NCBI RefSeq assembly: GCF_015841355.1
Contig: NZ_CP064908.1
Location: forward strand, 3,100,001 to 3,164,000
DNA length: 64,000 nucleotides
Source: Synechococcus sp. CBW1107
Lineage (GTDB): Bacteria; Cyanobacteriota; Cyanobacteriia; PCC-6307; Cyanobiaceae
Direction: 5' to 3'
Position numbers and translations under genes: made by a program. The notes beneath the pieces were generated by a model. That model worked only from the letters and a program-made list of their open reading frames with translations. It did not search any database and was not told the origin of the DNA. Position 1 is the first letter of the stretch. Each line of letters starts with the position of its first letter. Below are positions 18,497 to 58,986 of this stretch, in pieces.

Positions 18497-19414
18497 ATGG
18501 GCCTCACCCTGATCGAGGCAGCCAAGTACGAGACCCGCCTGGAGCACCTGGCGGTGATCAAGACCTTCGCTGAGGGCGAACTGCTCAGCTGGCTGCCGTT
18601 CATGAACATCGCCGGCGGCGGCCTCTTCTATTCCGTCGAGAAGGAGCTCCCCTCAGTGGGTTTCCGGGCGGTGAACGAGGGCTACAAGCAGAGCTACGGG
18701 GTCGTTGATCCCCAATCCGAGGCCGTGCACCTCTTTGGGGGTGACGTGGATGTGGACCGCTCGATCGTTGACCTGCAGGGCCCCGAGGCCCGGGCGGCTC
18801 AGACCGAGATGAAGGTCCGCTCGATGCGGCTCACCCTGGAGGCTGCCTTGATCAACGGTGATGCCACCGCCAGCCAGGGCCGAGGCTTTGACGGGCTGGC
18901 CAAGCGCCTTTCCCCAGGCACCGAGATGGCGCTGAACAACGGTGGCGGGGCGCTCGATTTCGACAAGCTCGATGAGCTGATCGATTCGGTGAACTCCTAC
19001 GGCGGCCGGAAGTACCTGGTGATGAGCAAGGCGATGCGCCGCCAGCTCAACGCCCTCGCCCGCCAGACCGTTGGCCAGGGCGTTTACAACGTCTCGACCA
19101 ACAACCTGGGGGTGATGGTGCATCACTACCAGGAGTGCCAGATCCTCACCGTCGACCGTGACGCCCAGGGCCTGGAGGTGCTGGGTTACGGCGAGGCGGG
19201 CGGCACCAGTTCGATCTACTGCTGCACCTTTGGCGACCAGGCGGTGACCGGCCTGCAGGGGCCGTTCCAGGGCCGCTATGGGATTTCGGTGCGGGACCTG
19301 GGTGAGGTGCCGGATGCGCCTGTGTTCCGCACCCGGATCGATTGGTACGTGGGCTTTGGCGTCATGCACCCCCGCGCTGCAGGCCGCCTGCACAGCATCG
19401 CCCCCATTTCCTGA
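18497..19414 (+). CDS. Major capsid protein
   Basis: 305 residues. The sequence has features of HK97-fold capsids: VKRTM-like RSMRLTLEAALINGD, GFDGLAKRLSPG, LDELIDSVNSYGG, then YLVMSKAMRRQLNALARQ and a C-terminal FRTRIDWYVGFGVMHPRAA. Location after scaffold, and followed by small structural genes, supports it. No N-terminal delta domain is evident. It forms the shell together with the scaffold. Confidence is moderate to high by context and pattern. Confidence 0.75.
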   Translation: MGLTLIEAAKYETRLEHLAVIKTFAEGELLSWLPFMNIAGGGLFYSVEKELPSVGFRAVNEGYKQSYGVVDPQSEAVHLFGGDVDVDRSIVDLQGPEARAAQTEMKVRSMRLTLEAALINGDATASQGRGFDGLAKRLSPGTEMALNNGGGALDFDKLDELIDSVNSYGGRKYLVMSKAMRRQLNALARQTVGQGVYNVSTNNLGVMVHHYQECQILTVDRDAQGLEVLGYGEAGGTSSIYCCTFGDQAVTGLQGPFQGRYGISVRDLGEVPDAPVFRTRIDWYVGFGVMHPRAAGRLHSIAPIS

Positions 19415-31917: not shown

Positions 31918-32550
31918 TCAGCCCGCCCCCACCAGCTGCTGGCGGAGAGCAGCGAGGGCCTTCTTTTGAGCCCGCTGAACGGCCATCGGGCTGATCTGCA
32001 GCTGCGCCGCGGCGGCTCGCAGGGAGAGCCCCTCGAGGATGGTGAGCCTCAGGGCCGTGGCCTGCGCCGCCGGCAGCTGCTCCACCAGCTGCTCCAAGGC
32101 GTGCCCAGCGAGGGAAGGATCCAGCGACGGCTCAGCGGCGGGAGCCGCCAGCTGCTCCAGCAGGCATTGCTCGCCATCGGCTGTGGCATCGAGGCTGCTG
32201 TGCCCCAGCGGGCAGGTGCCCTTCTCGTGCTCCCGGCGGGAGATGCGCACCAGGCGGACGCGATCGCGCAGGTGGTGCTGCAGGGCCCCGGCGATGCAGC
32301 GGCGTAGATAGGGCCAAGCAGGCTCGCCTGCTCTGCAGCAGGGAGCGGAGCGCACCAAGGCCTCGCGGGCCACCTGGATCAGATCCTCCCGCTCCACCAG
32401 CGGGAACAGGCGCCGGGCGGTGGCGGAGGCAATGGCATCGGCCAGGGGCAGGTGCTCCAGCACCAGGGCATTACGGGCACGCAGGTCAGAACGGCTGAGA
32501 GCTGGGGACTGCTGCTTGTGCCCAGAGGGGGAAGAAGAGAGGGAAGCCAT
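31918..32550 (-). CDS. Phage sigma-70 family factor (regions 2 and 4)
   Basis: 210 residues from ATGGCT at 32550; an upstream ATG exists. The middle has EHLPLADAIASATARRLFPL followed by EREDLIQVAREALVRSA, resembling region 2. The C-terminal AALRLTILEGLSLRAAAAQL and ISPMAVQRAQKKALAAL form a region-4 helix-turn-helix. It is distinct from the sigma-like protein encoded at 9229-9885. It may drive minus-strand leader genes. It belongs to the leader group, having element 6 upstream. Confidence 0.75.
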   Translation of the reverse strand: MASLSSSPSGHKQQSPALSRSDLRARNALVLEHLPLADAIASATARRLFPLVEREDLIQVAREALVRSAPCCRAGEPAWPYLRRCIAGALQHHLRDRVRLVRISRREHEKGTCPLGHSSLDATADGEQCLLEQLAAPAAEPSLDPSLAGHALEQLVEQLPAAQATALRLTILEGLSLRAAAAQLQISPMAVQRAQKKALAALRQQLVGAG

Positions 32551-32593
32551 CTGGAGGACGGCGGAGAACCCCACCCCCAACGGCCTGCCGCAG

Positions 32594-32648
32594 CGCCGCG
32601 GCAAGGACGCCCCGCAGGGGCGCATGGCCTGATCCTTGACGCAGCGCG
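32594..32648. repeat. Nested-hairpin element 6 (CAAGG/CCTTG family)
   Basis: GCGCCGCGGCAAGGA (32593-32607) pairs with TCCTTGACGCAGCGCG (32633-32648) with a few mismatches. CGCCCC-GCA-GGGGCG (32608-32622) is the inner hairpin. It is 44 bases 5' of the sigma gene start at 32550. Beyond it, 32649-32823 has no supported gene. Confidence 0.7.
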
Positions 32649-32823
32649 AGGACTGGACGAGGGATTTAGGTGGGTGTTTGACGGCCTGGTGGCGACCCAC
32701 TTCGCGACATCACTTGCATCAGGATTTCCAGGCCTGGTCGACTATGCAGACAGGTCAGTGGTTCAACGGTGACGTCGTCTGGAAAAGCCGTGATCAGGGC
32801 AAAGACAACCCTCAAACATTGCG

Positions 32824-33543
32824 TCAACCATCAAGGAGAGGGAGATCGTTAAGCAGTCGCCGCCGCTCTTCCCAGTCCGGCTGCAAGGAATCGAGCAATG
32901 CAACGAATTCCTCTCCGTGGGTGGGAACACTCAGGTGGGCCAGCTCATGCAGAACGATGTAGTCGAGGCATGACCGGGGCTTCTGGGCCAGCTGGGTATT
33001 CAGGCGGATGTTCCTTGTGGATGGATTACAGCTGCCCCACTGGCGGCTCATTGCTTGAACGAAGAGCTTGTTCATCTGTACACCCAGCCGCTGCTGCCAG
33101 TGATCAATCAGGCCTGTTGCCTCCTTGCGCAGCTCGTTGCGGTACCAGGCTGCAAGGATGCGCTGACGTTTCTCAAGGGTGGATCCAGGCCGGAGGAACA
33201 TGATCAAATTTCGGGGGTGAACCTCAACCCTGGGTGCGGTATTCACCTCCTCGATATGCAGCAGCAGCCTGCGACCCCACAGGGCATGGGACTCACGCTC
33301 CACCACCAGCCTGGGACTCTCGCGTTGCTGACCTGAAAGTCGAGCTTGCTGTTTCCGGATCCATCCCAGTTTGCCGATCGCGTAGGCGCGCACATGATCG
33401 GGGCTCATGCTCTGCGGCGCTGAAATCCTCACAGCCCCATTTGGTGGAACTACTGAAAGGTGAAGGTGCTTGATTGGCTTGATTGTGACCTCTACGGGCA
33501 CAACACCGATCAGCAACTGATGACTGGGGTAAGACTGCGTCAT
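32824..33543 (-). CDS. M48/YgjP-like metallopeptidase of a type I restriction locus
   Basis: 239 residues. The zinc site HELAH is in YIVLHELAHLSVPTHGEEF, and the substrate-binding element RQWGSCNPSTRNIRLN precedes it. The N-terminus is a DUF45-type beta domain. It starts one base within the hsdR stop (TGATG), so it is part of the same operon. Such peptidases often accompany type I restriction genes, with an unsettled role. Confidence 0.8.
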   Translation of the reverse strand: MTQSYPSHQLLIGVVPVEVTIKPIKHLHLSVVPPNGAVRISAPQSMSPDHVRAYAIGKLGWIRKQQARLSGQQRESPRLVVERESHALWGRRLLLHIEEVNTAPRVEVHPRNLIMFLRPGSTLEKRQRILAAWYRNELRKEATGLIDHWQQRLGVQMNKLFVQAMSRQWGSCNPSTRNIRLNTQLAQKPRSCLDYIVLHELAHLSVPTHGEEFVALLDSLQPDWEERRRLLNDLPLLDG

Positions 33544-36500
33544 CAGTACTCGGGTTGCGCTACAAGCACCTCAAACAGCCGTTCAACCTCCGCAGCGTCC
33601 TGAAGAAGGCCGTACAGCGCAGCCTTGATCACTTGCTCTTTGGCCTGGACGCCGCGCCAACCGTCAGGCCTGACCTGCCGCACAGTGCTATCAACTCGGA
33701 GTGCCAGATCGAGGTCGCCATTTAGGTTGTTCCACATGGCACGTTTTCCAGCGGTATCTAATTGAGCCGGAGTGCTATCAGCAGTTTGCTGGTGCAGTTG
33801 GCGGGCTAGTTCAGCGACCCTCCGTAGGTACTCTTCGTAAACATCAGCCTGTTGCCTGCGGAACCGGATGATCTCATCAAGTACCTGCGACATCCGATCA
33901 TAGAAAGCGGGATCATGGGCCCGCTCGCTGATGATTGTGCGGCGCATGTTGTTCTCAATGGTCTCCTGGACCGCTTTCTTGTTGCTGCTCGACTTACCAA
34001 AGCTTTGGTTGATGGCCTGAGCTACTCCCGTCTTGACGATCAGTTCCAGTAGGCCGATGTCGTCGAAAGCAGAGATCTTGCGTGGCTGATCGGCTTCAAT
34101 ATAGGCATCGATTAGGAAGCGCATGTCGGCTTCGTAGGCCTTGAGGTCGAGATTTTCACCCGCTGCCAAGCGGATCACTTGACGCCAGTCGAGTGCCTTA
34201 TCTCGTTGTTGGGTGATGCGTGTGGCCTCGCTGGCGGTATATCCAGCATCTGTTAATTCATTGGCCAAAGCGGCATGTGCCCTGGTCAGCTCGGCAACAG
34301 TCTTGTAGTACGCTATGCGTAGAGGCTCTCGCTCCTCTAGATCCGAGGAGTTCTCGGTGTTGCCACAAAAGTGGTGGAGGATTGCGAGTTCATCCATGGG
34401 TGGCGCAACGGGCTCGGCGAGCAGTGCCTCCTGCTCGAGAGCGTCGTCCAGGCGTTCCTTTGCTTTCTCGAGACGATCCTGTAGGAGCACTTCGGGATCG
34501 GAATCACCAGACGAATGATCGAGATCATCGTTGGAGTAGACAGCAATGGCATTTTCGACCTTCCTGAAAAGATCCTTGTAGTCCACAATCAGCCCATAGG
34601 GTTTGTCGTCTCCATCTAGACGATTGGTGCGGCAGATCGCCTGGAATAGGCCATGGTCCTGCATCGACTTGTCGATGTAGAGGACACTGCAGGACGGGGC
34701 ATCAAACCCCGTTAGCAGTTTGTCAACCACAATCAGCAGCTTCATCTGCGCCGGTTGGTTGATAAACAGATCCTTTGCACTCTCTTCATAGGCCTCGGTG
34801 CGGCTCATGCCCGGCCGTAGGGCAATGGAAATGAGCAGTCGGTTATAGGTGTTGTAGATGAATTGCTTGTCGGTTTCGGTGTTGGCGCCCACCTCCTCTT
34901 TGCTCACATCAGCAGCTTTGGGGTCATAGGAGGTGACCACGGCGCACTTGTTCTTGAGCTCCGTGCCATTGAACAGCTCGAAATAGCGACAAGCCTCATA
35001 GATGCTGGAAGCTACGAGGATGACGTTGCCGCGCTGGCTGACTAGACGCGGATTCAGAGAAAAGTCGAAGATAATGTCACTGACGATCCGGTTCATCCGC
35101 GCTTTGGAGCTGAGGATGTTCTGGAGCGTTCCCCACTGGCGCTTCAGTTCTCGTTGCTGCCAGGAGTTGAGATTGGCTGTTTTGGTCTCAAACCACTGAT
35201 CGACTCGTTCCTGGGCGCTGAGGCGTTGATCGATATCACGGGCTTCATACACCAAATCAAGAACGACCTTGTCTTCGACGCCTTCACTGAACTTGTAGGT
35301 GTGGATGTAGCCACCAAAAACCTCCAGGCTGGTGGCCTTGTCCTTCTTGAGCAGAGGGGTACCGGTGAAACCAATGAAGACGGCATCGGGCAGCAAGGCC
35401 TTCATCACACGGTGCAGCTTGCCGTTTTGGCTGCGGTGGCATTCATCCACGAAAACAAAGAGTTCACCTACCGCTGGGCTTGGCTGAGCATGAAGTTCTT
35501 CGAGATAGGCCTCAAAGTCATCGACCTCGCGCACGCCGAACTTGTGCACCAAAGAGCAGAGCAGCCTGGGTGTGGGCTGACCTAGGGCCTGCATTAGATC
35601 CTTGCCGCTGCTACTGCGTTGGATGGTTTCACCGGCACCACCAAAGACACCTTCAATCTGCTTGTCCAGCTCATCGCGATCAGTGACGATGACCACACGG
35701 GCATTGGGGTTGTTGGCCAGGATCCAGCGGGCCAGCAGCACCATCACAATGCTCTTGCCGCTGCCTTGGGTGTGCCAGATAATCCCGCCGTGACGTTCCT
35801 GAACATGCTTTTGGGCAGCCTTGATGCCGAAGTACTGATGGACCCGTGGCAGTTTCTTGATGCCGCCATCAAACAGAACAAAGTCGCGCAGTAACTCGAT
35901 CAGCCTGTTCTTGCGGCAGATCTTGAGCAGGTACTTGTCGAGCTTCAGGTGGCTGTTGTCGGCTTCGTCTTCCTTCCAGCTGAGAAAATATTTCTCTGGC
36001 GTCTCGATGGCACCGTAGCGAAGACCTTCAGAGTCATTGCCGGCGAACACAAGCTGGTTGGTGGCAAAGAACCAGGCGTTGAACTCTGGCCTTTGATTGG
36101 AAAGATTCTGGCGGATGCCATCGCCAATGCTGACACGGCTGCGCTTGAGCTCGATCACGCCGATGGCAATGCCATTGATATAGATAACGAGGTCTGGACG
36201 CCGCTCCTGTGGCCCTCTGAGAGTTACTTCCTCGGCTATGGCAAAATCATTGGCCTCTGGGTTATGCCAATCGATCAGGGAAACTGTTGTGGTGGGCTGA
36301 TCGGCGGCAGCTTTGACCTGAACTCCGTAGCGCAGCAGCGAGTAGACCTGCCGATTGGCTTCATAGAGGCCCTTCTGGCTTACATCCGCCGCCCCTCTGA
36401 GCTGATATAAGGCGCCACTGATCTCGGCTGGGCTAAAGCCGCGACGCTGGAGAACGCCGGTGAGGATGTCTTCCTCGATGTTGCTGTTCCCAGTGCGGTC

Positions 36501-36593
36501 TTTCCAGTCACCGAGATATCGGTAGCTGAGCTTTTCATCGAAAAGCTTGATCACCCGGTTTTGGGTGGCGCGCTCAAAACCCAGCCCGCTCAT
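33543..36593 (-). CDS. hsdR: Type I restriction endonuclease subunit R
   Basis: 1016 residues. The PD-(D/E)XK domain shows RRPDLVIYI and IGVIELKRS (D134, E148, K150). The translocase has TQGSGKS (275-281), a DECH box (383-386) and GFTGTPLL. The rest carries the helical domain and C-terminal HsdM-binding region. It cuts unmodified DNA after ATP-driven translocation. Its ATG overlaps the end of the GmrSD-like gene (ATGA). hsdM and hsdS are in the same operon but separated by three foreign-type genes. Confidence 0.92.
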   Translation of the reverse strand: MSGLGFERATQNRVIKLFDEKLSYRYLGDWKDRTGNSNIEEDILTGVLQRRGFSPAEISGALYQLRGAADVSQKGLYEANRQVYSLLRYGVQVKAAADQPTTTVSLIDWHNPEANDFAIAEEVTLRGPQERRPDLVIYINGIAIGVIELKRSRVSIGDGIRQNLSNQRPEFNAWFFATNQLVFAGNDSEGLRYGAIETPEKYFLSWKEDEADNSHLKLDKYLLKICRKNRLIELLRDFVLFDGGIKKLPRVHQYFGIKAAQKHVQERHGGIIWHTQGSGKSIVMVLLARWILANNPNARVVIVTDRDELDKQIEGVFGGAGETIQRSSSGKDLMQALGQPTPRLLCSLVHKFGVREVDDFEAYLEELHAQPSPAVGELFVFVDECHRSQNGKLHRVMKALLPDAVFIGFTGTPLLKKDKATSLEVFGGYIHTYKFSEGVEDKVVLDLVYEARDIDQRLSAQERVDQWFETKTANLNSWQQRELKRQWGTLQNILSSKARMNRIVSDIIFDFSLNPRLVSQRGNVILVASSIYEACRYFELFNGTELKNKCAVVTSYDPKAADVSKEEVGANTETDKQFIYNTYNRLLISIALRPGMSRTEAYEESAKDLFINQPAQMKLLIVVDKLLTGFDAPSCSVLYIDKSMQDHGLFQAICRTNRLDGDDKPYGLIVDYKDLFRKVENAIAVYSNDDLDHSSGDSDPEVLLQDRLEKAKERLDDALEQEALLAEPVAPPMDELAILHHFCGNTENSSDLEEREPLRIAYYKTVAELTRAHAALANELTDAGYTASEATRITQQRDKALDWRQVIRLAAGENLDLKAYEADMRFLIDAYIEADQPRKISAFDDIGLLELIVKTGVAQAINQSFGKSSSNKKAVQETIENNMRRTIISERAHDPAFYDRMSQVLDEIIRFRRQQADVYEEYLRRVAELARQLHQQTADSTPAQLDTAGKRAMWNNLNGDLDLALRVDSTVRQVRPDGWRGVQAKEQVIKAALYGLLQDAAEVERLFEVLVAQPEY

Positions 36594-38545
36594 GGCACCG
36601 CCTCCAGGCTGAGGATCTCTCGCTCCACATAGGTCCGGAAGGCGACAGGGGAGGTGAAGCAGCGGAACCCGGCGGCGCTGGCCAGGGCCAGGGTGGCGGG
36701 CTCCTCGTTGAGCAGCACGACCACGGGCTGGCTGAGCTCCTCCTGGATTCCTGCGGGCCAGGCCAGGTCGAACACGGCGCGCTGCTCGCCGGTGGCTGGG
36801 TCGGCGAAGTCGTAGGCGAGGGTGCCGAGGGGCAGGGATTGGTTACCCATCCAGGTATTGAGACGGATCAGCTCGGCTTCTTCTTCCTCGCTGGTGATGC
36901 CACCGAGTGTCTCGGCGCCTGGAGCAGGCACGGCGGCCGCGGGGCCGGACAGCCAGCGGGTGTCTCCATGCAGCAGCTCCTCCAGCCGGGCGTTCACTTC
37001 GGCTGCTAGCAACGCCTTGCGGGCCTCCAGGAAGGAGCGGAAGTTCTCGAGCTTCCAGAGTTCTGGATCGGGGGGGATCCACTGGGAGGCCAGGGCACCT
37101 GGATGGGCTGCCTCGATCTCGGGGAAGTACACCTCCGGCAGGCGATCGGTGATCTTGATATTGGTGTCTTTGGTGAGGAAGCAGAAGTTGGCCAGGGCGT
37201 TGACCTCTGGTCTGCGGTAGGCGGCCTTGTAGAGCTGCGCCTTGGGGAAGATGTGATGCACCTCCAGGCGGCTCATCTTGCCGAGCATGCCGGCCTTGAG
37301 CGGCAGTCCAGTGCCCCAGTCCCGGGCCTCGCCCATGCGGGTAAGCAGGTAGAGCACGGGGTAGAAACGGGCTCCGAGGCTCCAGCCAGTGAAGTGCCCG
37401 GGTTCGACCCGTAGCCCGCCATGCCAGAGGCGCAGCTGCTCCAGCAGGCGCTCCAGCCCGGCGTCTTCGGCTTCGAGGGCGGCGAGATCCTGATCGATGA
37501 ACGATTCCGTGGAACCCGAGAAGCGACCCCACATACCGGACTGCACGAACCAGAACAGCAGCCGGTCGCGCTCCACCTCATCCATGGGGCCGCTGCGCTG
37601 ATCGAGGTAGCGCACCATCACGGGGATGCCGAACCGCCCGAAGAACACCTGGTCGTGATCGAGGCCGAGACGGCCGGCGATCAGGTTGAGGCAAGTGTCG
37701 ATGTGTCTGGTGGCGCGCTTGAGGGCGTCCTGGATTTCGGGGGTGCTCTTGTCGTGCAAGTAGAGGAACTTGGCCTCACCGGTGAGCACCGTGTTCACCG
37801 AGCGCAGCAGCCAGTCGAGGTTGAAGCTGTAACCGTGGTCGCTCCACTCCTTGAGCTTGGCCTTCATCGCATCACGACCCTCCGGCCAGTCGGCGCAGAT
37901 CTTGGCGAGGGCCAGGTCGCCTTTGGAGAGCTTGGTGCCGCCACTGTTGACGCGATTGAAGATGTCCACCACCACGTCGAGTGTCTTGTCGGCGCCGGTG
38001 ACCTCTTCGATGTGGAGGTCGATTTCGGTGATTCCCAGAAGCTGGCTGAGACGGCCGATGAATTCGCCGACCCTGGGAGACAACTCGGGGTTCTGGCCGA
38101 ACTCGGCTGCCAACTGGCCGAGGCCGGCGCTGCCCATGCCGAGCAGGTTGGTGACATCAATCCAGAGCGGATCGTCCTTCATCTTCACCGGCTGGTAGAA
38201 GGCAAACACTTCCTCCCCGAGATGGAAGCGGAGCCCAGTGAAGGCCTGGGCGTTGCCATCGAAGAACTTGGGAGGCTTGCCGCGCACCACGCCATAGAGG
38301 GACGTCATACGCTGCTGGCCATCGAGCAGAAGCTTCACCACACCAGCCGCCAGCGGGCCATCACCGCGATGGGTGGCGGTCCGAGACTCCGTGGCCCATA
38401 CCAGCAAGCCGCCGACGGGATGGCGTTTGTAGAGGGAGTCGAACAACCCGCGCACTTGGTCACGATTCCACACGTAGCCCCGCTGGAACTCGGGCAGGGC
38501 CATGTGGCCGCTGTCGATGTGATCGAGAATAGTGGAGATCTTCAT
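36590..38545 (-). CDS. GmrSD-like DUF262/HNH nuclease
   Basis: 651 residues from the ATG at 38545. The N-terminal DUF262 ParB/sulfiredoxin-like fold shows ALPEFQRGYVWNRDQVRGL and the LLLDGQQRMTSL motif (73-84). The C-terminal part has LEVHHIFPKAQLYK (427-440) and LANFCFLTKDTN, an HNH nuclease. The pairing resembles GmrS-GmrD fusions that cut glucosylated or otherwise modified DNA using NTP. It sits between the TOPRIM-like gene and hsdR, so it may protect against phages that evade type I restriction by modification. Confidence 0.8.
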   Translation of the reverse strand: MKISTILDHIDSGHMALPEFQRGYVWNRDQVRGLFDSLYKRHPVGGLLVWATESRTATHRGDGPLAAGVVKLLLDGQQRMTSLYGVVRGKPPKFFDGNAQAFTGLRFHLGEEVFAFYQPVKMKDDPLWIDVTNLLGMGSAGLGQLAAEFGQNPELSPRVGEFIGRLSQLLGITEIDLHIEEVTGADKTLDVVVDIFNRVNSGGTKLSKGDLALAKICADWPEGRDAMKAKLKEWSDHGYSFNLDWLLRSVNTVLTGEAKFLYLHDKSTPEIQDALKRATRHIDTCLNLIAGRLGLDHDQVFFGRFGIPVMVRYLDQRSGPMDEVERDRLLFWFVQSGMWGRFSGSTESFIDQDLAALEAEDAGLERLLEQLRLWHGGLRVEPGHFTGWSLGARFYPVLYLLTRMGEARDWGTGLPLKAGMLGKMSRLEVHHIFPKAQLYKAAYRRPEVNALANFCFLTKDTNIKITDRLPEVYFPEIEAAHPGALASQWIPPDPELWKLENFRSFLEARKALLAAEVNARLEELLHGDTRWLSGPAAAVPAPGAETLGGITSEEEEAELIRLNTWMGNQSLPLGTLAYDFADPATGEQRAVFDLAWPAGIQEELSQPVVVLLNEEPATLALASAAGFRCFTSPVAFRTYVEREILSLEAVP

Positions 38546-38561
38546 GGGGGTTGTTTCTCTG

Positions 38562-39287
38562 TCAAGTGATAGGAAGCGCTTGCGAGAGATTGTGCTGAAG
38601 ACGTGCTGCTGTCCACAGATTTGCAACTAAGTCTGGCCAAGCTTGGGAGATTGATCCACCGATGGCTTTGTATGAAGAGGTGATTGGTTTGATTTCGGTG
38701 ATACGCTTGCCGTTCTTCGTCCGATTCCTGCGCTGCACAAGCTTCGGTCTTTTCCCAAGCAGGGCCGCCTTGGGGTCGCTGATGCATTCGACGCAGGTTG
38801 AGCTGGCTGACGGATTAAGGCAAGACGACGATTCAGGAAGGGAAGGAAATAATACACGCAAAATCCAAGCCTCAGTCATCATGCTAGGCGCCCAGATCAC
38901 CACGTTTGGGGGAAGTTGTTGTAGTCCCAGCCAGCTTATGACAATGCTCTCAGCCTTGATCACATTATGTTCGGGCGGCGGGCAAGGCTGGCCTGCGTTG
39001 ATCTCGGCTTCAAAGACAATTTCTCCGTCAACATGGATGATGAGAAGATCCACCTCTGATGCCAGTGCCCGGACTTCTTCAAGGCCACCTGCGGCTTGAA
39101 TCATTTGACACCAATTACGCACGCCCTTCCAGCCAGTGCCATGCTCAGCGGGCACGCCCTGAATCTCCGAAGATTCCGGCTGGATGCAGTTGACAGTAAA
39201 CTTATCGCTTTGCAGATAAGCAAAAAGAACAGCCTCCAGAATGATCTTGTCTGTTATTCCTTCGCAGACAAGCTTGACATTAAACAT
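38562..39287 (-). CDS. TOPRIM-like protein, partner of an AAA ATPase
   Basis: 241 residues. The N-terminus VKLVCEGITDKIILEAVLF (E9, D13) and LLIIHVDGEI (D87, E89) form the TOPRIM acid set. Several positions look like DUF4276-type proteins. It overlaps the end of the ATPase gene by eight bases. Such ATPase-TOPRIM gene pairs resemble PARIS (AriA-AriB), Gabija and OLD-type systems, where the TOPRIM subunit is a nuclease released on infection. The exact family is uncertain. Confidence 0.65.
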   Translation of the reverse strand: MFNVKLVCEGITDKIILEAVLFAYLQSDKFTVNCIQPESSEIQGVPAEHGTGWKGVRNWCQMIQAAGGLEEVRALASEVDLLIIHVDGEIVFEAEINAGQPCPPPEHNVIKAESIVISWLGLQQLPPNVVIWAPSMMTEAWILRVLFPSLPESSSCLNPSASSTCVECISDPKAALLGKRPKLVQRRNRTKNGKRITEIKPITSSYKAIGGSISQAWPDLVANLWTAARLQHNLSQALPIT

Positions 39288-40458
39288 TTGGCACGCCCCC
39301 TAGATGCCCCAGAATCCATAGGCGAGACAAGGGCCAACCTTCCTTGGCCATGAGCGCTTCATCAACAGCAACGCGCCTGATGACGGTCATGCCCCCGTAA
39401 GATCGATCCACGGCAAACAGGCGCACCCTGTCGTCCTGCAGTGGAAGCCCGTCAAGCACGAGAGGATTATGACAAGTCAGGAGCACTTGGCGCCCACTCT
39501 CCAAGACCCAATCGACCATCTTGGCAGTCAGAGAGCGAAGCAGCCGCGGGTTGAGGGTGGCATCAAAGTTATCGATAGCAAACAGCTTTGGGCTATCTGG
39601 ATGAGTTGCAAGGATGGCTGCAAACAACACGTACAATGCTCCTTCGCTGGCATCAAAGCCACTCAGGATATTCCGACCTTCTGCCATAAAGCGATCACGA
39701 AAGTATAAAACTTGTGCCGGTCTTGGGATTGAAGGAGACAAGGGCACACCGGAAGCGGGGCGCGCTCCAAAGTTGTCGACCCAATCGATCAGCTCCAGGA
39801 CACCTTCGATCACGTCTTCGAAGACTTCATCATTGCGAGCCAGGCGTCGAAGCGCCTCAGATGCCTCCGCCAAACGGCCACCAGCAAGACCTACAGGGCT
39901 TCTGCCATGCAAGTCGGGCTCTATTCCTCTGAGCTTAAAAGTATTCGGGGCATAGATTGAAAAGTTTTGCAGTGCCGTTAGCATCCGAATGCCTTCAGTA
40001 CCTGCCATCTCAACCGCCTTCAAGGCTGCCAGTCCACGCTGGGTATCTAACGCACTGATTTCTGAGGAAGCAGGAGAGCGACCAACAATCTTTTCCCCGG
40101 CACTGATCCACTTTTCGTTCTTGTATGCCCATGCCGTGGACTGGTCACTAGGATTATTGAGATCGACCTCGTAACTGCTCGTGCCACTATAGGCCCCGAA
40201 GCGAATGGCATTGCGGCGTTTATGACCCCGAAATGATGTCTTGTAGAGATCTGGTAGTCCAGGGCGTACGCCCCTGTGCCATAGAGATTCATCATTCACG
40301 CGACCAGAAGCAGCAGCACCCAGTACGCCAATCGCTTCAAGGATGTTCGACTTGCCACTACCGTTGGCTCCGACAAACACGTTAAAAGCACCCAACTCCA
40401 GGCTGGCTTCCTGGATGGACTTGAAGGCATGGATGTCGATGCGCTCGATCAGCGTCAT
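39280..40458 (-). CDS. AAA_15/21 (SMC-like ABC) ATPase of a candidate defence pair
   Basis: 392 residues. Walker A VGANGSGKSN (29-38), signature SEGALYVLFAAIL (271-283), Walker B KLFAIDNFDATLNP (291-304) and TCHNPL (328-333). The layout is that of RecF/OLD-like single-protein ATPases. In PARIS-like systems the ATPase senses a phage factor. Here it is embedded between hsdS and the TOPRIM gene and shares their strand. Base composition is lower in GC than hsdM. Confidence 0.75.
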   Translation of the reverse strand: MTLIERIDIHAFKSIQEASLELGAFNVFVGANGSGKSNILEAIGVLGAAASGRVNDESLWHRGVRPGLPDLYKTSFRGHKRRNAIRFGAYSGTSSYEVDLNNPSDQSTAWAYKNEKWISAGEKIVGRSPASSEISALDTQRGLAALKAVEMAGTEGIRMLTALQNFSIYAPNTFKLRGIEPDLHGRSPVGLAGGRLAEASEALRRLARNDEVFEDVIEGVLELIDWVDNFGARPASGVPLSPSIPRPAQVLYFRDRFMAEGRNILSGFDASEGALYVLFAAILATHPDSPKLFAIDNFDATLNPRLLRSLTAKMVDWVLESGRQVLLTCHNPLVLDGLPLQDDRVRLFAVDRSYGGMTVIRRVAVDEALMAKEGWPLSRLWILGHLGGVPNV

Positions 40459-40579
40459 GGCATGCAGACGTTCCCGTGGGGCTGGTTGCTGGATCTGGCT
40501 GGCCGCAGGGTAGCCAAACCCACCACGGCCATCAGCACTGCCGGCTGGGCTGATCGGGGCATGGGGATGCAGTGGTGTC

Positions 40580-41767
40580 TCATTGCAGGCGGATCTTGCC
40601 GGTGAGGAGCTGTTGCATCATTCCTTGCTTGAGGGCAATGGTCTTGGTATGTCGTTCTTCAAGCCGCCTTATCTCACTGTCCATAGTGTCGAGGATATCT
40701 GTGATCGCTTCTTGCTCTTCGAGCGATGGTAGATGAATTGGGAGCTCTCCAAGCGATGATTTGCTGATAGATGCAAGGTTTGTGGTTTGCTTGCCTGCGA
40801 TTAAAAAGTAATCTCTGGCAATCGAACTAGTTATCCATGAATTGAGATATGAGGAGGAGAGTGAGGGATCAGGACGCACTACAAAAACATGATTCTGATG
40901 GACGCAGGGCTCGCCCAGTCCCTGCCAGACTGCACCGCGACCAAGCTTATCCAGGTCGCCACCCTCATTCATAAGTACATCCCCGGCAAGTACGGAATAC
41001 TTGGCAACCTCATGACGGGGTATCTCAATCTTGCTAATTTCCGACAGGTCAAAAAAGCCGTCTTGCACATTGGCAACACGTAAATAGTTGACTTTGACCG
41101 GATTTTGAATCTTCGTGCCCGAGTTTTTGGTGATACCAGAGCGAATCATGGCCACTTGTCGCAATGTCTTCACCCCCCACTCCCCCTCAAACCCCGGCAG
41201 CCGCCGCTTGCCGGTGAGCAGCTCCTGCATGGCGGCCTGCTTGATGCCCCGCCTCTTGGCGATGAGATTTCCAAGTTCGCCCAGCAGCGCATCCATATTA
41301 CTCAAAGCCAAGGCTATTGAGCGTTGTTCGGCCTCTGAACGGGGTGCGGCGAGCGGTAACTTCAACAGCTTGGATACCGATAGTCCTGGCTGTGCCGATG
41401 ATTCCGAGTATCGGTTCAGGTGCATCTCGCCCAGAACGTATGTCAGGTAGTCAATGTCGTAGCTAGCTCGTGGTGTTACAACGACAGCATGCTCCGATGC
41501 GAAGAACTTGCTCTGAGCTGAAACCACGTTCCCACAGAGAGCGCCCTGCCGTCCGATTAGTGCAAACCTTCCGTCATGCGTAAATCGCTTCGTGTAGCCA
41601 CGAAGCCCGTTTCCCCCATAGCAGGGATACTCGGAGAAGTCATCAATGCTTGACGCAGTAATTCCTTCGCCGCTCTTCATCGTGCAAACGGCTTCAAGCT
41701 CCAAGGCATCCCAATCCTCCGGGATCATCCCCACCTCCGTCTGCTTGTAACCCGACTTCAGTTCCAT
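40580..41767 (-). CDS. hsdS: Type I restriction specificity subunit S
   Basis: 395 residues starting MELKSGYKQTEVGMIPEDWD, overlapping the end of hsdM by ten bases. Two target-recognition halves are separated by conserved helices: RSIALALSNMDALLGELGNL then KRRGIKQAAMQELLTGKRRL in the centre, and EEQEAITDILDTMDSEIRRL with LKQGMMQQLLTGKIRL at the end. The long upstream frame in the ORF is spurious. It gives the DNA sequence specificity; the two TRDs differ from each other. Confidence 0.9.
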   Translation of the reverse strand: MELKSGYKQTEVGMIPEDWDALELEAVCTMKSGEGITASSIDDFSEYPCYGGNGLRGYTKRFTHDGRFALIGRQGALCGNVVSAQSKFFASEHAVVVTPRASYDIDYLTYVLGEMHLNRYSESSAQPGLSVSKLLKLPLAAPRSEAEQRSIALALSNMDALLGELGNLIAKRRGIKQAAMQELLTGKRRLPGFEGEWGVKTLRQVAMIRSGITKNSGTKIQNPVKVNYLRVANVQDGFFDLSEISKIEIPRHEVAKYSVLAGDVLMNEGGDLDKLGRGAVWQGLGEPCVHQNHVFVVRPDPSLSSSYLNSWITSSIARDYFLIAGKQTTNLASISKSSLGELPIHLPSLEEQEAITDILDTMDSEIRRLEERHTKTIALKQGMMQQLLTGKIRLQ

Positions 41768-44166
41768 GCGAAACCCATCCGCTCCAGGTGGCCGGCCACT
41801 CGCGCTTCCAGTTCTTCCACCCGCTGGCTGATCGCCGGTAAGGCCTCGCCGTAGCGCTCGCCCAGCTCTTTGAGGCGGCTGGTGAGGGCCTGGCTGACCC
41901 GTTCCACCTCGGATGCGATGGCCTGCTCCATGGTGGTCAGCCATTTGCCCTGCACCACCAGCTCGCGCACCTCGGCGTCCGTGAGGCTGTCGTAGCGGCC
42001 ATAGGCCTGGTCGTCGAGCTCGGCTTCGGCGGCCCTGAGGGCCTTCTTGGTGGCGGCCTCCTCGTCGCTCAGTTCCAGCCATTCCCGCAGCACGGCCAGC
42101 TCCTCGGCGGCTTCGGGATCCTTGCGGATCTCCTTGATGCGGGTGTTCACGGCTGCCTTGTTGATCTTGTCCAGCTCGCTGAAGGCGCCCTCCTCGCCGC
42201 CGTGCTCCTCCTCCAGTTCCGCCAGGCGGCTGCTGGCCTCCTCCAGCTGGGCGCGGAGGGCTTCGATCAGCTCCAGATCACCGGCAAACAGCTGGCGCAC
42301 CAGCAGCTCCTTGGGCACCAGGTCGCAGGCCCAGCCCTTGTCTTTGGTCTTGCCCTTCTTGTCGGTCTCCAGCACCCGGTAGGGCTCGGCGCGCCAGCCC
42401 TCGGCGCTGATCGCATACACGTCGTCCTGCATCGTCTCGGCCCACTGGTCGAGCAGCAGCTGGTACACGGCGTAGGCATCGATTAGGGGCTGGCCCTGGT
42501 AGTGGGTCAGCAGGCCCTCGCTCAGCTCGCGAATCACCGCCTTGGGATGACAGCTCGCCTCCAGGGCCAACAGCTGGGCCGCCGCCTGTTGCCGCCAGGC
42601 CGCAAAGTGCTTGGCCATCCCCGCCAGGAAGCCGGCGAACTGGGGATGGGCGGTGATCGTGGCCTTCACTTCCGCCGGCGGCAGCGCCAGCTCCAGATAG
42701 CCAGGCCGCAGGGGCCTAAACAAGGCCTCGCGCAACTGGGGACACACCTCCCAATATGCCCCCAGGGCGTCGGTGTCGCGTTCGGGGATGCCGCCGCGCA
42801 GGTGGGCCTCGATGTCCTGCAGGTCTTCCGCTTCGGAGCTGTCGATGTAGCGGGGCAGGTTGAGGTTGTAGTCGTGCCCGGCGATCTCCTCGTTGGGAAC
42901 GAAGCGCGAATAGCCCGGCACCACCAGCTGGCGGGTGAACACATCCACGATCTTGTGGATGTCACGCTCGCGCAGACGGTTTTTGGGGCCGTCCTTGATG
43001 AAGCCCTTGCTGGCATCCACCAGAAAGATGCCCTCGCGGCTGCCGGCATCGCGCTTGTCGATCACCAGGATGCAGGCGGGGATGCCGGTGCCATAGAAGA
43101 GGTTGGCCGGCAGGCCGATGATGCCCTGGATCAATCCCCGCTGGATCAGGTTCTTGCGGATCTCGGCTTCGGCGTTGCCGCGGAACAGCACGCCGTGGGG
43201 AAGGATGCAGCTGCCCCGGCCCGTGCTCTTGAGCGTGCGCACGATGTGCAGGAGGTAGGCATAGTCGCCCTGCTTGGCCGGTGGGATGCCGAAGCCTTCG
43301 AAGCGGCTGTGGGGATCCTTCGCCGCATCAATCCCTGTGCTCCAGCGCTTGTCGGAGAACGGTGGATTGGCCACCACATAGTCGAACTGCTTGAGCTGTT
43401 CGCCCTCCTTGAGTTTCGGATCCGCCAGGGTGTTGCCCTGCCAGATGATCGCGGTGGGATTGCCGTGCAGGATCATGTTCATCCGCGCTAGGCCGCTGGT
43501 GGCCGCGTCTTTCTCCTGGCCGTAGAGCGTCACTGGCCGGCCCGCCTGGGCCGCCACCTTGAGCAGCAACGATCCTGAGCCGCAGAACGGATCGCACACG
43601 GTGGTGGAGGCCTTGAGGTCGTCGCTGTCGATCTGCAGCACCTGGGCCTTCACGCGGCTCACCTCGGCCGGCGTGAGGAATTGCCCTTTGCTCTTGCCGC
43701 TCTCTACGGCGAAGTGGCGCATTAGATATTCGTAGGCATCGCCAAGGATGTCGTCGTCGTCCGCCCGGTTGCGCGAGAAGTTGAGCGCCGGCGTCTCGAA
43801 GATCGCGATCAGATCGGTGAGGCGGTCCACCAGCTCCTTGCCGCTGCCCAGCTTGGCCTGGTCGTTGAAATCGGGAAAATCGCTCTGGCTCAGTTGCTGG
43901 TTGGCGGCCACCAACGGCGCAATGATCTGCTTGTTGATGCGATCGCCGATCTCCGCTTTGCCCTTGAGGGCAATCATGTCGGCAAAGCCGCTGCCATCAG
44001 GGATCACCAGCGGCGCATAGGGCTGGCCGGCGAACTTGTCGCTGATGTACTTGAGGAAGAGGAGCACCAGCACATAGTCCTTGTACTGGCTGGCATCCAT
44101 GCCGCCGCGCAGGGCGTCGCAGCTCGCCCAAAGGCTGGAGTAAAGCTCGGATTTGCGGATGGCCAT
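41758..44166 (-). CDS. hsdM: Type I restriction methyltransferase subunit M
   Basis: 802 residues. The N-terminal HsdM helical domain (KDYVLVLLFLKYISDKF), SAM-binding TVCDPFCGSGSLLL (189-202) and NPPF (267-270) identify an adenine methyltransferase. The C-terminal third is coiled-coil-rich (LDKINKAAVNTRIKEIRKD), longer than in typical HsdM, as in many marine cyanobacterial forms. It starts three bases after the BrxE-like gene. It methylates the site selected by HsdS. Confidence 0.92.
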   Translation of the reverse strand: MAIRKSELYSSLWASCDALRGGMDASQYKDYVLVLLFLKYISDKFAGQPYAPLVIPDGSGFADMIALKGKAEIGDRINKQIIAPLVAANQQLSQSDFPDFNDQAKLGSGKELVDRLTDLIAIFETPALNFSRNRADDDDILGDAYEYLMRHFAVESGKSKGQFLTPAEVSRVKAQVLQIDSDDLKASTTVCDPFCGSGSLLLKVAAQAGRPVTLYGQEKDAATSGLARMNMILHGNPTAIIWQGNTLADPKLKEGEQLKQFDYVVANPPFSDKRWSTGIDAAKDPHSRFEGFGIPPAKQGDYAYLLHIVRTLKSTGRGSCILPHGVLFRGNAEAEIRKNLIQRGLIQGIIGLPANLFYGTGIPACILVIDKRDAGSREGIFLVDASKGFIKDGPKNRLRERDIHKIVDVFTRQLVVPGYSRFVPNEEIAGHDYNLNLPRYIDSSEAEDLQDIEAHLRGGIPERDTDALGAYWEVCPQLREALFRPLRPGYLELALPPAEVKATITAHPQFAGFLAGMAKHFAAWRQQAAAQLLALEASCHPKAVIRELSEGLLTHYQGQPLIDAYAVYQLLLDQWAETMQDDVYAISAEGWRAEPYRVLETDKKGKTKDKGWACDLVPKELLVRQLFAGDLELIEALRAQLEEASSRLAELEEEHGGEEGAFSELDKINKAAVNTRIKEIRKDPEAAEELAVLREWLELSDEEAATKKALRAAEAELDDQAYGRYDSLTDAEVRELVVQGKWLTTMEQAIASEVERVSQALTSRLKELGERYGEALPAISQRVEELEARVAGHLERMGFAWN

Positions 44167-44169
44167 GGC

Positions 44170-44994
44170 TCAGGCTGCCTCCCCTTGATCACCCGCGAGG
44201 AGAGCTGTTGGTATGTCTTCCATCCAGCCTTGACGAGATAGACGTTCCAGCTTGCGGCTGAGTTCTTCGACCTCCCGGCTCAGGGCCACACTCTCCTGCT
44301 CCAGGGCCTCGGCCCGCTGGAGCTCGCTGTCGTGGGGAATCACCACGGGCAGGCTCTTCACCTCCCCCATCGGCACGAAGGCCACCGCGGTTCCCTGGTC
44401 GGCCTTGTCCAACAGGGGTTGCCCCACAGCACTACGGAGGTTCTTCATCAAAACTGCTGGGGTGAGGGGGGGCATCGGGTCACACACGAACCCTGCAGCC
44501 AGCCGCTCGATGTGCCCCTGGTTGATCTCGAAGGGAGCGTCCAGGCGCAGGGCCTTGGCGGTTTGTGGGGTCTGGTTTTGGGCCCAGTCGAGCGCCTCCG
44601 AATCCAGCTCGGCCAGCTCGACCAGCGCCTGGGGCCATTGCTCCGTACTCAGGGCCCAGGCCGCCTGGAAGCAGTCCGCCCACTCCTGGGGTGCATCCAG
44701 CCAGCGGTTGCGCTCGTTCTCATAGGCGTCTTCCAGCTGGGGCGTCAGCCGAAATAAATGACAGGTGATCGCTCCTCCCGGGCTGGGCTGAATCCCCAAG
44801 GCCTCGTCGCAGGCCAGCTGGGCCACCCGGAAGCCAGCCCTGGTCTGCGCGAAGGGCGAGGAGCGCGGAAAGCCCTGCTGGAACAGGAACTCCCCAGTTC
44901 CCGTCAGTACGCCGCTGTTCCACCAGCCCAGCCGCTGGGTCTCTCCCAGGGCCGCCACCACCAGGCGAAGCTTGAAGAGCTGGCGGAAGTCCAT
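44170..44994 (-). CDS. BrxE-like protein heading the defence operon
   Basis: 274 residues, MDFRQLFKLRLVVAALGETQ then LGWWNSGVL and GFPRSSPFAQTRAGFRVAQL. This matches, from memory, the BrxE family found in BREX type 6 loci and also beside restriction genes. The C-terminus is a coiled coil (LEQESVALSREVEELSRKLE). It is transcribed first, directly before hsdM. BrxE roles are not established. No other BREX core genes (pglX, brxC, brxL) are in the window. Confidence 0.6.
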   Translation of the reverse strand: MDFRQLFKLRLVVAALGETQRLGWWNSGVLTGTGEFLFQQGFPRSSPFAQTRAGFRVAQLACDEALGIQPSPGGAITCHLFRLTPQLEDAYENERNRWLDAPQEWADCFQAAWALSTEQWPQALVELAELDSEALDWAQNQTPQTAKALRLDAPFEINQGHIERLAAGFVCDPMPPLTPAVLMKNLRSAVGQPLLDKADQGTAVAFVPMGEVKSLPVVIPHDSELQRAEALEQESVALSREVEELSRKLERLSRQGWMEDIPTALLAGDQGEAA

Positions 44995-46215: not shown

Positions 46216-47810
46216 TTGACGACAGCTTGATTTCCGGTTGCATCTCAGGTAGAGACCCGCCTGTGATGACCGCACATCCGGCTGGAATTCCAGAAGCCGA
46301 CTGGCTGGAAACTCCCGCCAGCGTCAGAGCGCTGATCAACGCCCAGCAGCAGGAGATCGAGCTGTTGCGCGGCCAACTCACCTCCTTGGCCACCGAGTTG
46401 GCAAACCTGCGTGAGCGGATCGGACGCAGCTCTCGCAACTCATCCAAACCTCCCTCCAGTGATGGTCTGGGTTTTAAGCCGCCAGAACGGCGCAAGGGCA
46501 GTGGCCGCAAGCGGGGCGGCCAGCAGGGCCATCCCGGATCCGGACCAGAGCTGCTGTCGATCGAGCGGGTGGATCAGGTGGTGGATCACCACCCTGATGC
46601 CTGCCGCCGCTGTGGCACCTTGCTCCAGGGAGAGGATCTCGATCCCCTGCGCCATCAGGTGATCGAGATCCCGCCGATTACCCCGCTGGTGATCGAGCAC
46701 CGGCTGCATCGCCTGGTCTGCCCCTGCTGTTCCACCAGCACCTGCGCCTCGTTGCCGGCGGATGTGGAGGCCAGTCACTACGGCCCAAGGCTCAGTGCAC
46801 TGGTGGGCCTGCTGGGCAGTGCCTTTCCGTTGAGTTTCAGCAAGACCCAGGCCCTGCTCCAGCAGCTGGTAGGAGTGGAGATGAGCCGCGGCGCGATTGG
46901 ACGGGTCCGCCAGCGCTTGAGTGCAGCACTGGAGCAGCCCATGCAGGAGGCCCTTGCTTTTGCCCGCGTGCAGCCGGTGGCCTACGTAGATGAAACTGGC
47001 GCCCCCACCGGCAATGCCGACGGCAACAATCCCACTGGAAAGCGGGGCTGGCAGTGGGTCATGGTCACCGCCGTGGTGACGGTATTTGTGCAAGGGCTGA
47101 GTCGATCGACGACCGCTGCCATCGAGCTGCTGGGGAACGCCTTTGGCGGGATTGTGGTGAGCGATCGCTTCTCGGCCTACAACCACCTGCCCACCAAGCA
47201 GCGCCAGCTGTGCTGGGCGCACCTGATCCGCGACCTGACGGCCATCGCCGAACGCCCGGGCGCCAGCGCTGAATTCGGAGCCCAGCTGCTGGGCCTGCAG
47301 CAGCAGCTGTTTGGCCACTGGCACCGCTACAAGGAGGGAAAGATTGACTGGCCCGCCTTGCAGCAAAGCTGCCGGCCGATCCGCCAGACCTTTGAGACCA
47401 CGCTGCAGCGGGTAGTAGAGCTCGGCTACCAGCGCGGCGAGCGAACGCCTTGGGCCAGCACAGTGCGCACGTGCCAGCAGCTCCAGAAGGTGACAGGTGG
47501 GTTGTGGACCTTCCTGGAGAACGAGGGAATAGAGCCCACCAACAACGCCGCAGAACGTGCCCTGCGCCAATCGGTGATTCAGCGCAAGATCAGTCAAGGA
47601 GTCCAATCCCGCCAAGGTGCGATCTGCCGGAGCCGCCTGCTCACGGTCACCACTACCCTCAGGCAACAGGGGCGGGATGTCTGGGAGTTCCTGGAGCAGG
47701 CCTGGATCGCCCATCACCGCGATGGGGTGATGCCGTCACTGCTGAGCGATCCCTGAAGGCAGAAGAAAGGACAAGGAAGAGTCTCTGATCGCTCAGCGGT
47801 GAGCGATCAG
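46216..47810 (+). mobile_element. IS66-family insertion sequence
   Basis: Only a transposase gene of TnpC type is present; no separate tnpA/tnpB genes are seen. Exact boundaries are not found: terminal inverted repeats and the usual 8-bp duplication could not be picked out by eye. A perfect 10-bp stem hairpin (TGATCGCTCA-GCGG-TGAGCGATCA, 47786-47809) lies near the right end. Edges given are where the flanking gene fragments begin. Confidence 0.6.
46266..47756 (+). CDS. IS66-family transposase
   Basis: 496 residues from the ATG at 46266. An N-terminal leucine-zipper-like coiled coil (ALINAQQQEIELLRGQLTSL) precedes a zinc-type segment (CRRCGTLLQGEDLDPLRHQV and CPCCSTSTC). The DDE core has AYVDETGAP, VVSDRFSAYNHLP and PTNNAAERALRQ (final Glu). 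The length fits full IS66 transposases. It is probably intact. No overlapping accessory frame is evident. Confidence 0.9.
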   Translation: MTAHPAGIPEADWLETPASVRALINAQQQEIELLRGQLTSLATELANLRERIGRSSRNSSKPPSSDGLGFKPPERRKGSGRKRGGQQGHPGSGPELLSIERVDQVVDHHPDACRRCGTLLQGEDLDPLRHQVIEIPPITPLVIEHRLHRLVCPCCSTSTCASLPADVEASHYGPRLSALVGLLGSAFPLSFSKTQALLQQLVGVEMSRGAIGRVRQRLSAALEQPMQEALAFARVQPVAYVDETGAPTGNADGNNPTGKRGWQWVMVTAVVTVFVQGLSRSTTAAIELLGNAFGGIVVSDRFSAYNHLPTKQRQLCWAHLIRDLTAIAERPGASAEFGAQLLGLQQQLFGHWHRYKEGKIDWPALQQSCRPIRQTFETTLQRVVELGYQRGERTPWASTVRTCQQLQKVTGGLWTFLENEGIEPTNNAAERALRQSVIQRKISQGVQSRQGAICRSRLLTVTTTLRQQGRDVWEFLEQAWIAHHRDGVMPSLLSDP

Positions 47811-58899: not shown

Positions 58900-58912
58900 T
58901 TATGGTGACTAG

Positions 58913-58986
58913 TCGGGGCGACAGGATTCGAACCTGCGACCTAGTGCTCCCAAAGCACCCGCGCTACCAAGCTGCGCCACGCCCCG
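58913..58986 (-). tRNA. tRNA-Pro (TGG)
   Basis: The minus strand gives acceptor CGGGGCG/CGCCCCG with discriminator A. The D arm is GCGCAGCTTGGTAGCGC, the anticodon loop CTTTGGGAG holds TGG, and the T arm is GCAGGTTCGAATCCTGT. CCA is not encoded. 74 bases. A terminator follows. A tyrosine recombinase gene starts 200 bp from its 5' end. Confidence 0.95.

Follow-up and report, generated by a model that had tools for sequence, protein, structure and literature searches.

A prophage-borne type I restriction operon of Synechococcus sp. CBW1107 with exchangeable defense genes between hsdS and hsdR

The operon and its prophage

The window analyzed here is a 64,000-nucleotide stretch of the 3.20 Mb single-contig genome of Synechococcus sp. 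CBW1107 (G000:C1:3100001-3164000; positions on the whole contig carry the prefix G000:C1, and bare numbers count from the start of the window). Within it lies a block of eight minus-strand genes built on a type I restriction-modification operon (Table 1). A first-pass annotation had described these eight genes as packed like an operon, with three defense-type genes between hsdS and hsdR, and the genes, their order, their strand, and their span all hold once two starts are corrected. Successive genes overlap by 1, 4, 8, or 10 bp or are parted by gaps of 3, 16, or 121 bp, which bears out the operon-like packing. The three inserted genes are indeed present, as two units: an ATPase-TOPRIM pair matching the PADLOC family PDC-M31 and a gene for a DUF262-HNH protein.

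Gene names rest on Pfam, PADLOC, and NCBIfam searches, the TOPRIM gene being the exception. The type I components are complete, comprising HsdM, an HsdS with target-recognition domains, and an HsdR with both nuclease and translocase motifs. Catalytic motifs read from the sequence are intact in HsdM, HsdR, the DUF262/HNH protein, the ATPase, and the YgjP-like metallopeptidase. As to the two corrected starts, hsdS begins at the ATG at 41767, in a 10-bp overlap with hsdM (the 500-aa open reading frame was overextended), and for the DUF262 gene the most likely start is the ATG at 38545, where DNA homology to relatives begins, an upstream TTG being disfavored.

The GC content at third codon positions (GC3) is 0.80 in the first gene, 0.87 in hsdM, 0.58 in hsdS, 0.55 and 0.54 in the ATPase and TOPRIM genes, 0.84 in the DUF262 gene, and 0.66 in both hsdR and the metallopeptidase gene. 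Because the DUF262 gene (0.84) differs so much from the pair (0.55/0.54), the two probably have different histories; GC3 and their differing distribution in relatives are what divide the insert into two units.

Table 1. Features of the operon and the right end of the prophage
Feature	Position	Strand	Length	Evidence and remarks
Whole block, eight genes	44994 to 32824	-		Transcription order: BrxE-family chimera, hsdM, hsdS, ATPase, TOPRIM-like, DUF262-HNH, hsdR, YgjP-like metallopeptidase
First gene, BrxE chimera	44170..44994	-	274 aa	NF033447, 95.3 bits
hsdM, type I DNA methyltransferase	41758..44166	-	802 aa	HsdM_N + N6_Mtase (Pfam); PADLOC MTase_I, E 0; NPPF at 267
hsdS, specificity subunit	40580..41767	-	395 aa	Methylase_S, 2 stretches; start corrected
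PDC-M31A, SMC/Rad50/PtuA-type ABC ATPase	39280..40458	-	392 aa	PADLOC PDC-M31A, 9.5e-151
PDC-M31B, TOPRIM-like putative nuclease	38562..39287	-	241 aa	PADLOC PDC-M31B, 5.1e-34; EGxTD + DxD-type motif; overlaps ATPase gene
DUF262 (GmrS) + C-terminal HNH nuclease, GmrSD/BrxU-like	36590..38545	-	651 aa	GmrSD_N 8.3e-25 (Pfam); HEC-05 4.7e-44 (PADLOC)
hsdR, type I restriction/translocase subunit	33543..36593	-	1016 aa	HSDR_N, SWI2_SNF2, T1R_D3-like; PD-ExK, Walker A, DECH motifs
YgjP/SprT/M48-like metallopeptidase	32824..33543	-	239 aa	YgjP-like 1.4e-53 (Pfam); HELAH at 199
Right attachment (att) site, 3' half of tRNA-Pro	58911..58956	-		Exact 46-bp copy at G000:C1:3088389-3088434

The operon lies within a prophage of about 70.6 kb, bounded by the 46-bp tRNA-Pro repeats, with an integrase just inside the left copy (G000:C1:3088389-3088434). 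PHROGs matches at 1.2-52.8 kb of the window include a helicase, primase, terminase, portal, scaffold, major head, tail fiber, endolysin, and Rad52-like protein. Phage genes, repeat, and integrase together support the prophage location given at first pass.

Exchange of genes between hsdS and hsdR in close relatives

Within the order, an HsdM-anchored search (E-value of 1e-100 or better) gave hits in 12 of 399 genomes, our own included. Eleven relatives' neighborhoods were read; two loci (L141 and L150) break off ahead of the hsdS-hsdR interval and were omitted, leaving ten intervals with that of the window. Two of these hold the ATPase-TOPRIM pair plus DUF262 (the window and genome G403), and three hold a Septu PtuA/PtuB pair, DUF262, and a DUF4062/HATPase/HTH gene (G464, G405, and G482; of these, the G464 pair was searched with the Septu models and the last cargo gene of G405 with Pfam, the other members being assigned as homologous). 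Single genomes carry DUF262 with a zeta-toxin-like gene (G336), a decayed DUF262 gene with no pair (G529, where hsdM and hsdR are broken too), and PDC-S06 with two DUF262 proteins and a Fic-like fragment (G375). The slot is empty in two (G422 and G597). Decay also touches the Septu-bearing group: in G482 both DUF262 and hsdR are broken, and in G464 the last cargo gene is split.

All six close relatives (HsdM 83-94% identical) have the DUF262 gene, intact in four and broken in two. In the four with an intact copy, HsdM is 88-94% and DUF262 94-97% identical to the window's. At 94% identity or above, DUF262 occurs in 5 of 400 family genomes, our own included, every time within this operon; outside it there are two matches, of 30-32%. 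Blocks of DNA homology end at or near gene edges, namely, at the hsdM start, at the DUF262 ATG, just before the DUF262 stop, and at the hsdR start, and in G336 (locus L143) the DUF262 ATG overlaps the hsdS stop, which is the slot without a pair. In the close relatives, then, the pair is exchangeable cargo, and DUF262 is what the slot regularly contains. The Septu-bearing operons have a second slot, between DUF262 and hsdR, that holds a gene with DUF4062, HATPase, and winged-helix parts (L142:6118-7614, homologues in L140 and L145) that matches SIR2/pAgo and Csa3 models of PADLOC weakly; in L143 the zeta-toxin-like gene sits there.

The order hsdM-hsdS-AAA-TOPRIM-DUF262-hsdR-YgjP recurs once among the relatives, in G403, which belongs to another genus of the family. 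Identities to the window are 88% for HsdM, 38% for HsdS, 76% for the ATPase, 52% for the TOPRIM protein, 94% for DUF262, 84% for HsdR, and 76% for YgjP. A search for the gene order had been proposed with the first-pass annotation, and G403 disposes of the possibility that the arrangement is unique to this assembly; the recurrence is a single one, perhaps by common descent. Because one continuous block of homology (70.8% over 1,437 columns) joins the end of hsdS to the ATPase gene in the window and G403, one old insertion followed by divergence is possible for both.

A chimeric first gene

The BrxE_fam match of the first protein is confined to residues 4-137 (95.3 bits; cut-off, 40), and the protein scores far under the cut-off of the BREX-6 BrxE equivalog (31.7 versus 80 bits), which places it outside BREX-6. 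Over 102 aa (residues 173-274), the C terminus shares 76% identity with the final part of a methylase-like gene in a sister operon (L143:2093-3997), whose Pfam match is N6_Mtase. In the window, the front of this methylase/specificity-like gene has been replaced by the BrxE domain; the first gene is a chimera of a BrxE-family domain and a C-terminal fragment, and possibly a remnant. The full-length gene before hsdM in L143 encodes 634 aa; in L141, L146, and L150 nothing but scraps of its end remain.

We detected no BrxE part in the 11 HsdM-anchored relatives, among which only the C-terminal end has counterparts, and no BREX core gene was named among the eight operon genes by Pfam, PADLOC, or NCBIfam. 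A BREX relationship through BrxE was rejected on the BREX-6 score and this failure to detect it, and the place of the BrxE-like gene as a component of the system, given to it at first pass, is for the latter reason not supported. The same result bears on the idea, raised with the first-pass annotation, that all eight proteins act together as one composite system. Tight one-strand packing speaks for it, as do the seven genes out of eight that recur in G403 without a change of order; single parts are missing or replaced in relatives, however, the BrxE part was detected in none of the 11, and codon-position composition differs strongly between modules. We regard this proposal as highly improbable, and a single integrated machine is not supported.

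The PDC-M31 ATPase-TOPRIM pair

The adjacent genes of the pair match both PDC-M31 models in PADLOC, for which no curated cut-off is given. The TOPRIM protein matches no Pfam family and neither an AriB nor a DUF4435 model at an E-value of 0.1 or below. An alignment of 25 sequences has E9, D13, P37, D87, and W141 in all members and D89 in at least 90%. The structure model of the TOPRIM protein (predicted local distance difference test [pLDDT], 87.3; predicted template modeling score [pTM], 0.86) gave as its top three in the second of two fold comparisons PH0156 (Z 7.9; 4.1 Å over 165 residues), PARIS AriB (Z 7.2; 4.8 Å over 172), and the OLD Toprim domain (Z 6.9; 4.2 Å over 160); retron Eco2 scored Z 4.6 (155 residues), while unrelated structures score up to Z 5.0 over some 100 residues. 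The ATPase model (pLDDT, 89.5) falls among SMC, Rad50, and PtuA heads at Z 17-20; AriA was not among the 50 fold matches listed for it, which is uninformative either way. Searching the sequences of solved structures yielded no useful match for the TOPRIM profile or for the YgjP query. By modeled fold and by motifs, these results suggest that PDC-M31 is a split OLD/PARIS-like ATPase-nuclease.

Within a phylum sample of 292 genomes, PDC-M31B occurs in 9, our own included, and PDC-M31A (1e-20) in 13. At the eight other PDC-M31B loci, the 13-20 kb fetched were scanned with single window proteins at 1e-3 or 1e-4, a scan that distant hsd genes may escape, and nothing resembling the products of the window's hsd genes turned up. 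None of ten neighbors from five PDC-M31B loci has a type I domain; one is helicase-like. In a further scan, of species genomes, contexts were read for 15 (L048-L062) of the best 80 of 106 relatives, and in L049 a different type I system carries the pair between its hsdS and hsdM. Of 23 viral loci, 21 were read.

A Methylase_S search over 39 genomes or records with the pair's ATPase found hsdS beside it in one (L049) and in 0 of the 18 virus records, a search that covers HsdS only and includes several records under 5 kb, where neighbors could be missed. Of the 39, 35 also show the TOPRIM partner, which was not detected in L056, L057, G195, or G255. G195 has no HsdS, and in G255 the nearest lies about 550 kb from the ATPase; in G066 a stop falls within the TOPRIM frame, and L028, a short TOPRIM match with no ATPase, was not counted as a pair. 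TOPRIM relatives were absent from named phages at 1e-5 and numbered one in plasmids (L025, Enterobacter plasmid NZ_CP042572.1). On that conjugative plasmid, a PDC-M31-like pair stands without type I genes beside a SAVED-domain/ThiF gene set. From the loci lacking type I neighbors and from its placement in L049, the pair emerges as an autonomous two-gene module able to enter type I operons. The co-occurrence check suggested at first pass thus has a divided outcome: the pair follows hsdS in G403, and elsewhere HsdS adjoins its ATPase in 1 of 39 cases, with Septu or no pair in the close relatives.

By analogy with related systems, the pair would be an ATPase-restrained nuclease with an abortive outcome. 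A rival reading is that it guards the restriction enzyme itself, watching the type I complex or phage anti-restriction proteins and killing the cell once restriction has been disabled, in the way of PARIS with Ocr or of PrrC within EcoprrI. The position after hsdS in the window and G403, the L049 placement, the PARIS and PrrC precedents, and the nearness of the TOPRIM model to AriB would all fit. Against it stand the 38 of 39 other genomes and records with no HsdS beside the ATPase and the lack of an AriB or DUF4435 family match in the TOPRIM protein. Because HsdS is absent beside those 38 and Septu holds the slot in sister operons, no obligate partnership with a restriction enzyme is indicated, and we consider the guard function unlikely.

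Two standard assignments were tried and set aside. Like PARIS, the pair consists of adjacent split genes for an ABC ATPase and a TOPRIM protein, with AriB among the three best fold matches; unlike PARIS, it has no AriB or DUF4435 model match, and membership was rejected with the likeness confined to fold. Septu occupies the same slot in three sister operons and has a related ATPase fold, and the window's ATPase weakly matches PtuA; its partner, however, is PDC-M31B, a TOPRIM protein, and has no match to the HNH-type PtuB. The pair does agree with PDC-M31 as defined in PADLOC in both models and in two-gene order, differing in that a type I operon houses it here along with another insert.

PARIS has been treated as a possible class 4 OLD system (PMC10568477), and its AriB as a TOPRIM tRNA nuclease that the E26A mutation inactivates (PMC12409363). 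A BREX survey describes modules of an OLD-ABC ATPase and a TOPRIM protein adjoining BREX as an answer to anti-restriction proteins (PMC12839542). PDC families were found through guilt-by-embedding and are mostly unvalidated, with M31 going unmentioned in the available passages (PMC12988326); our literature search found no paper naming PDC-M31.

The DUF262-HNH enzyme

The only solved relative found for the DUF262 protein is 7p9k, which we take to be BrxU. The QR, DGQQR, and FxxxN motifs listed for such proteins (PMC11411939) are present, as in GmrSD/BrxU DUF262 proteins. HEC-05, the PADLOC model that it matches, corresponds to BrxU (PMC11411939). The enzyme resembles BrxU/HEC-05 in this match and in its solved relative and differs in being embedded in a type I operon, not in BREX.

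The operon type beyond the family and in the literature

Of 3,349 matching plasmid records for HsdM, ten were listed and eight read (H16 and H21 were left out). Among the records read, the layout hsdM-hsdS-[cargo]-hsdR-metallopeptidase is shared by relatives from Cyanobacteriota and Pseudomonadota. An Escherichia coli plasmid operon (HsdM 54.5% identical to the window's) has DarT/DarG-type genes in the hsdS-hsdR interval, an Aeromonas one a hypothetical gene plus SLATT, and the Methylomagnum and Pseudomonas ones two small genes each, the Pseudomonas record having no hsdR in its table and a 3.2-kb stretch left for one. The interval is empty in Acaryochloris (where a PD-DEXK gene lies between hsdM and hsdS), Sinorhizobium, and Rhizobium; in Deinococcus, DUF262, RelE/HigA, and Fic genes come after hsdS, and the stretch stops before any hsdR. 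A SprT/M48 metallopeptidase follows in seven of the eight, and it is the usual last gene of this operon type. In five of the eight, the gene before hsdM, whose place the chimera holds in the window, carries a regulator or antitoxin annotation (WYL, HTH, Phd, AbrB, or transcription factor). Viral contigs yielded one HsdM relative, 51% identical, on a contig that stops after hsdM.

The closest described locus is the RRDM island of enteropathogenic E. coli (EPEC), RptR-HsdM-HsdS-DarTG2-HsdR-M48, in which the hsdS-hsdR interval is seen as a potential hotspot and where a pair with an AAA-like ATPase occupies that place in four genomes (PMC12255303). The two loci share the backbone order, cargo between hsdS and hsdR, a zinc metallopeptidase after hsdR, and an extra first gene, RptR sitting at the same place before hsdM. 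They differ in that the window's operon has PDC-M31 plus a DUF262 nuclease against DarTG2, has a BrxE chimera against RptR, and is prophage-borne; neither Pfam nor PADLOC matched DarTG to any of its eight genes. The window's operon is the same kind of locus as RRDM and not RRDM itself.

DUF262 genes inside type I operons have precedents as well. TgvAB lies within the type I operon of Vibrio cholerae VPI-2 (PMC11411939, PMC12409362), where it was shown to act against modified phages and was proposed to complement the type I system (PMC11411939). Type I genes are those found most frequently beside GmrSD, and Campylobacter jejuni, for which DUF262 proteins are also described in PMC8713573, has RloF between hsdS and hsdR (PMC4619093). 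TgvAB and RloF resemble the window in having a DUF262/GmrSD-type gene inside a type I operon; TgvAB, however, is a two-protein system, whereas the window has a single DUF262-HNH protein plus the inserted pair. An older case of an insert in a type I system is PrrC, embedded in EcoprrI (PMC3874165). The first-pass annotation had treated the layout as abnormal on the ground that type I genes are normally adjacent. Given the hsdS-hsdR inserts already described (PMC12255303, PMC4619093, PMC11411939) and PrrC (PMC3874165), its observation was right and the surprise is smaller than claimed.

Interpretation

We read the locus, with a probability of roughly 0.8, as a type I operon of a widespread lineage whose hsdS-hsdR interval is a cargo slot, borne by a prophage and combining separate, probably cotranscribed layers of defense. 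On the best reading of the sequences, these layers would be type I restriction, type IV restriction of the GmrSD/BrxU kind, and a PARIS-like pair. HsdM, HsdS, and HsdR would methylate self DNA and cut unmodified incoming DNA, and the DUF262-HNH enzyme would cut phage DNA with modified cytosines that is beyond the reach of type I enzymes. The ATPase of the pair would keep the TOPRIM nuclease inactive, sense infection, and release the nuclease, leading to a stop in translation or to nucleic acid degradation. The modules would share a transcript and act by separate mechanisms, and the prophage may gain by excluding competing phages.

Several observations weigh against parts of this reading. The TOPRIM protein of the window has E at residue 89 (DGE), where at least 90% of the 25 aligned sequences and G403 have D, and because of this residue the copy might be weak or dead. 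Foldseek found no match for the TOPRIM model at an E-value of 0.001 or better, and the fold matches obtained are middling (Z 6.9-7.9), compatible with a TOPRIM fold and no proof of it, as Z under 8 can reflect a common arrangement. The HNH end of the DUF262 protein shows HHIFP and a downstream N-bearing motif, yet Pfam GmrSD_C gives no match at an E-value of 0.1, and the gene is broken in two of the six close relatives. Selection for the combination would also account for an identical order in two genera, and the mosaic of base composition speaks to differing histories, not to function.

Some of these points could also mean that the hsdS-hsdR junction merely tolerates insertion and that its cargo accumulates passively and decays. 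Broken DUF262 and HsdR genes in G482 and G529, the split cargo in G464, the glutamate at residue 89, and the chimeric first gene are what such a process would leave behind. The window's hsd, DUF262, ATPase, and metallopeptidase frames are, however, open with motifs kept, and the 94-97% conservation of DUF262 in the four relatives with an intact copy suggests use; passive accumulation is in our judgment doubtful. A more elaborate possibility, of similarly low probability, is a trap in two slots, in which base-modifying phages would meet the DUF262 nuclease and phages with anti-restriction proteins would trigger PDC-M31 or Septu, either of which would respond to the inhibited restriction complex and abort the infection.

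With separate layers in a cargo slot as the preferred reading, what is known already is a type I operon with embedded defense cargo. What is new is that DUF262 regularly resides in the slot, that PDC-M31 and Septu replace each other there while the backbone hardly changes, and that PDC-M31 can be read as OLD/PARIS-like. A literature search whose range left preprints and most subscription journals outside found no description of this exact operon. Operons whose slot holds PDC-M31, Septu, DUF262 alone, or nothing form a natural set in which cargo is swapped while the restriction enzyme stays nearly constant, and because of this set, whether embedded modules guard the restriction system or merely share its promoter is directly testable. 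The candidate PDC-M31 is likewise placed beside split OLD/PARIS-like ATPase-TOPRIM pairs, with defined residues for mutation.

Surroundings of the operon

Within the prophage, the major head protein (18497-19414, plus strand) is 46.6% identical to that of cyanophage PSS2, which hints at the prophage's host group. A sigma-70-like gene (31918-32700, minus strand) lies 123 bp downstream of the metallopeptidase gene and adjoins the endolysin-like gene, and an IS66-type transposase gene (46266-47756, plus strand) lies about 1.3 kb upstream of the operon. Elsewhere in the genome, two further HSDR_N matches (G000:C1:2742266-2742544 and 813066-813332) show that the host has other type I-like genes.

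Just beyond the tRNA-Pro end of the prophage is a second integrase gene (59285-60418, plus strand), and the 5' half of the tRNA-Pro has a 45-bp, 96% identical copy about 28.7 kb further on (G000:C1:3187648-3187692). From this integrase and copy, a second element may be using the same tRNA-Pro. A Mutator-family transposase gene (60755-62008, minus strand) lies near the right edge of the window.

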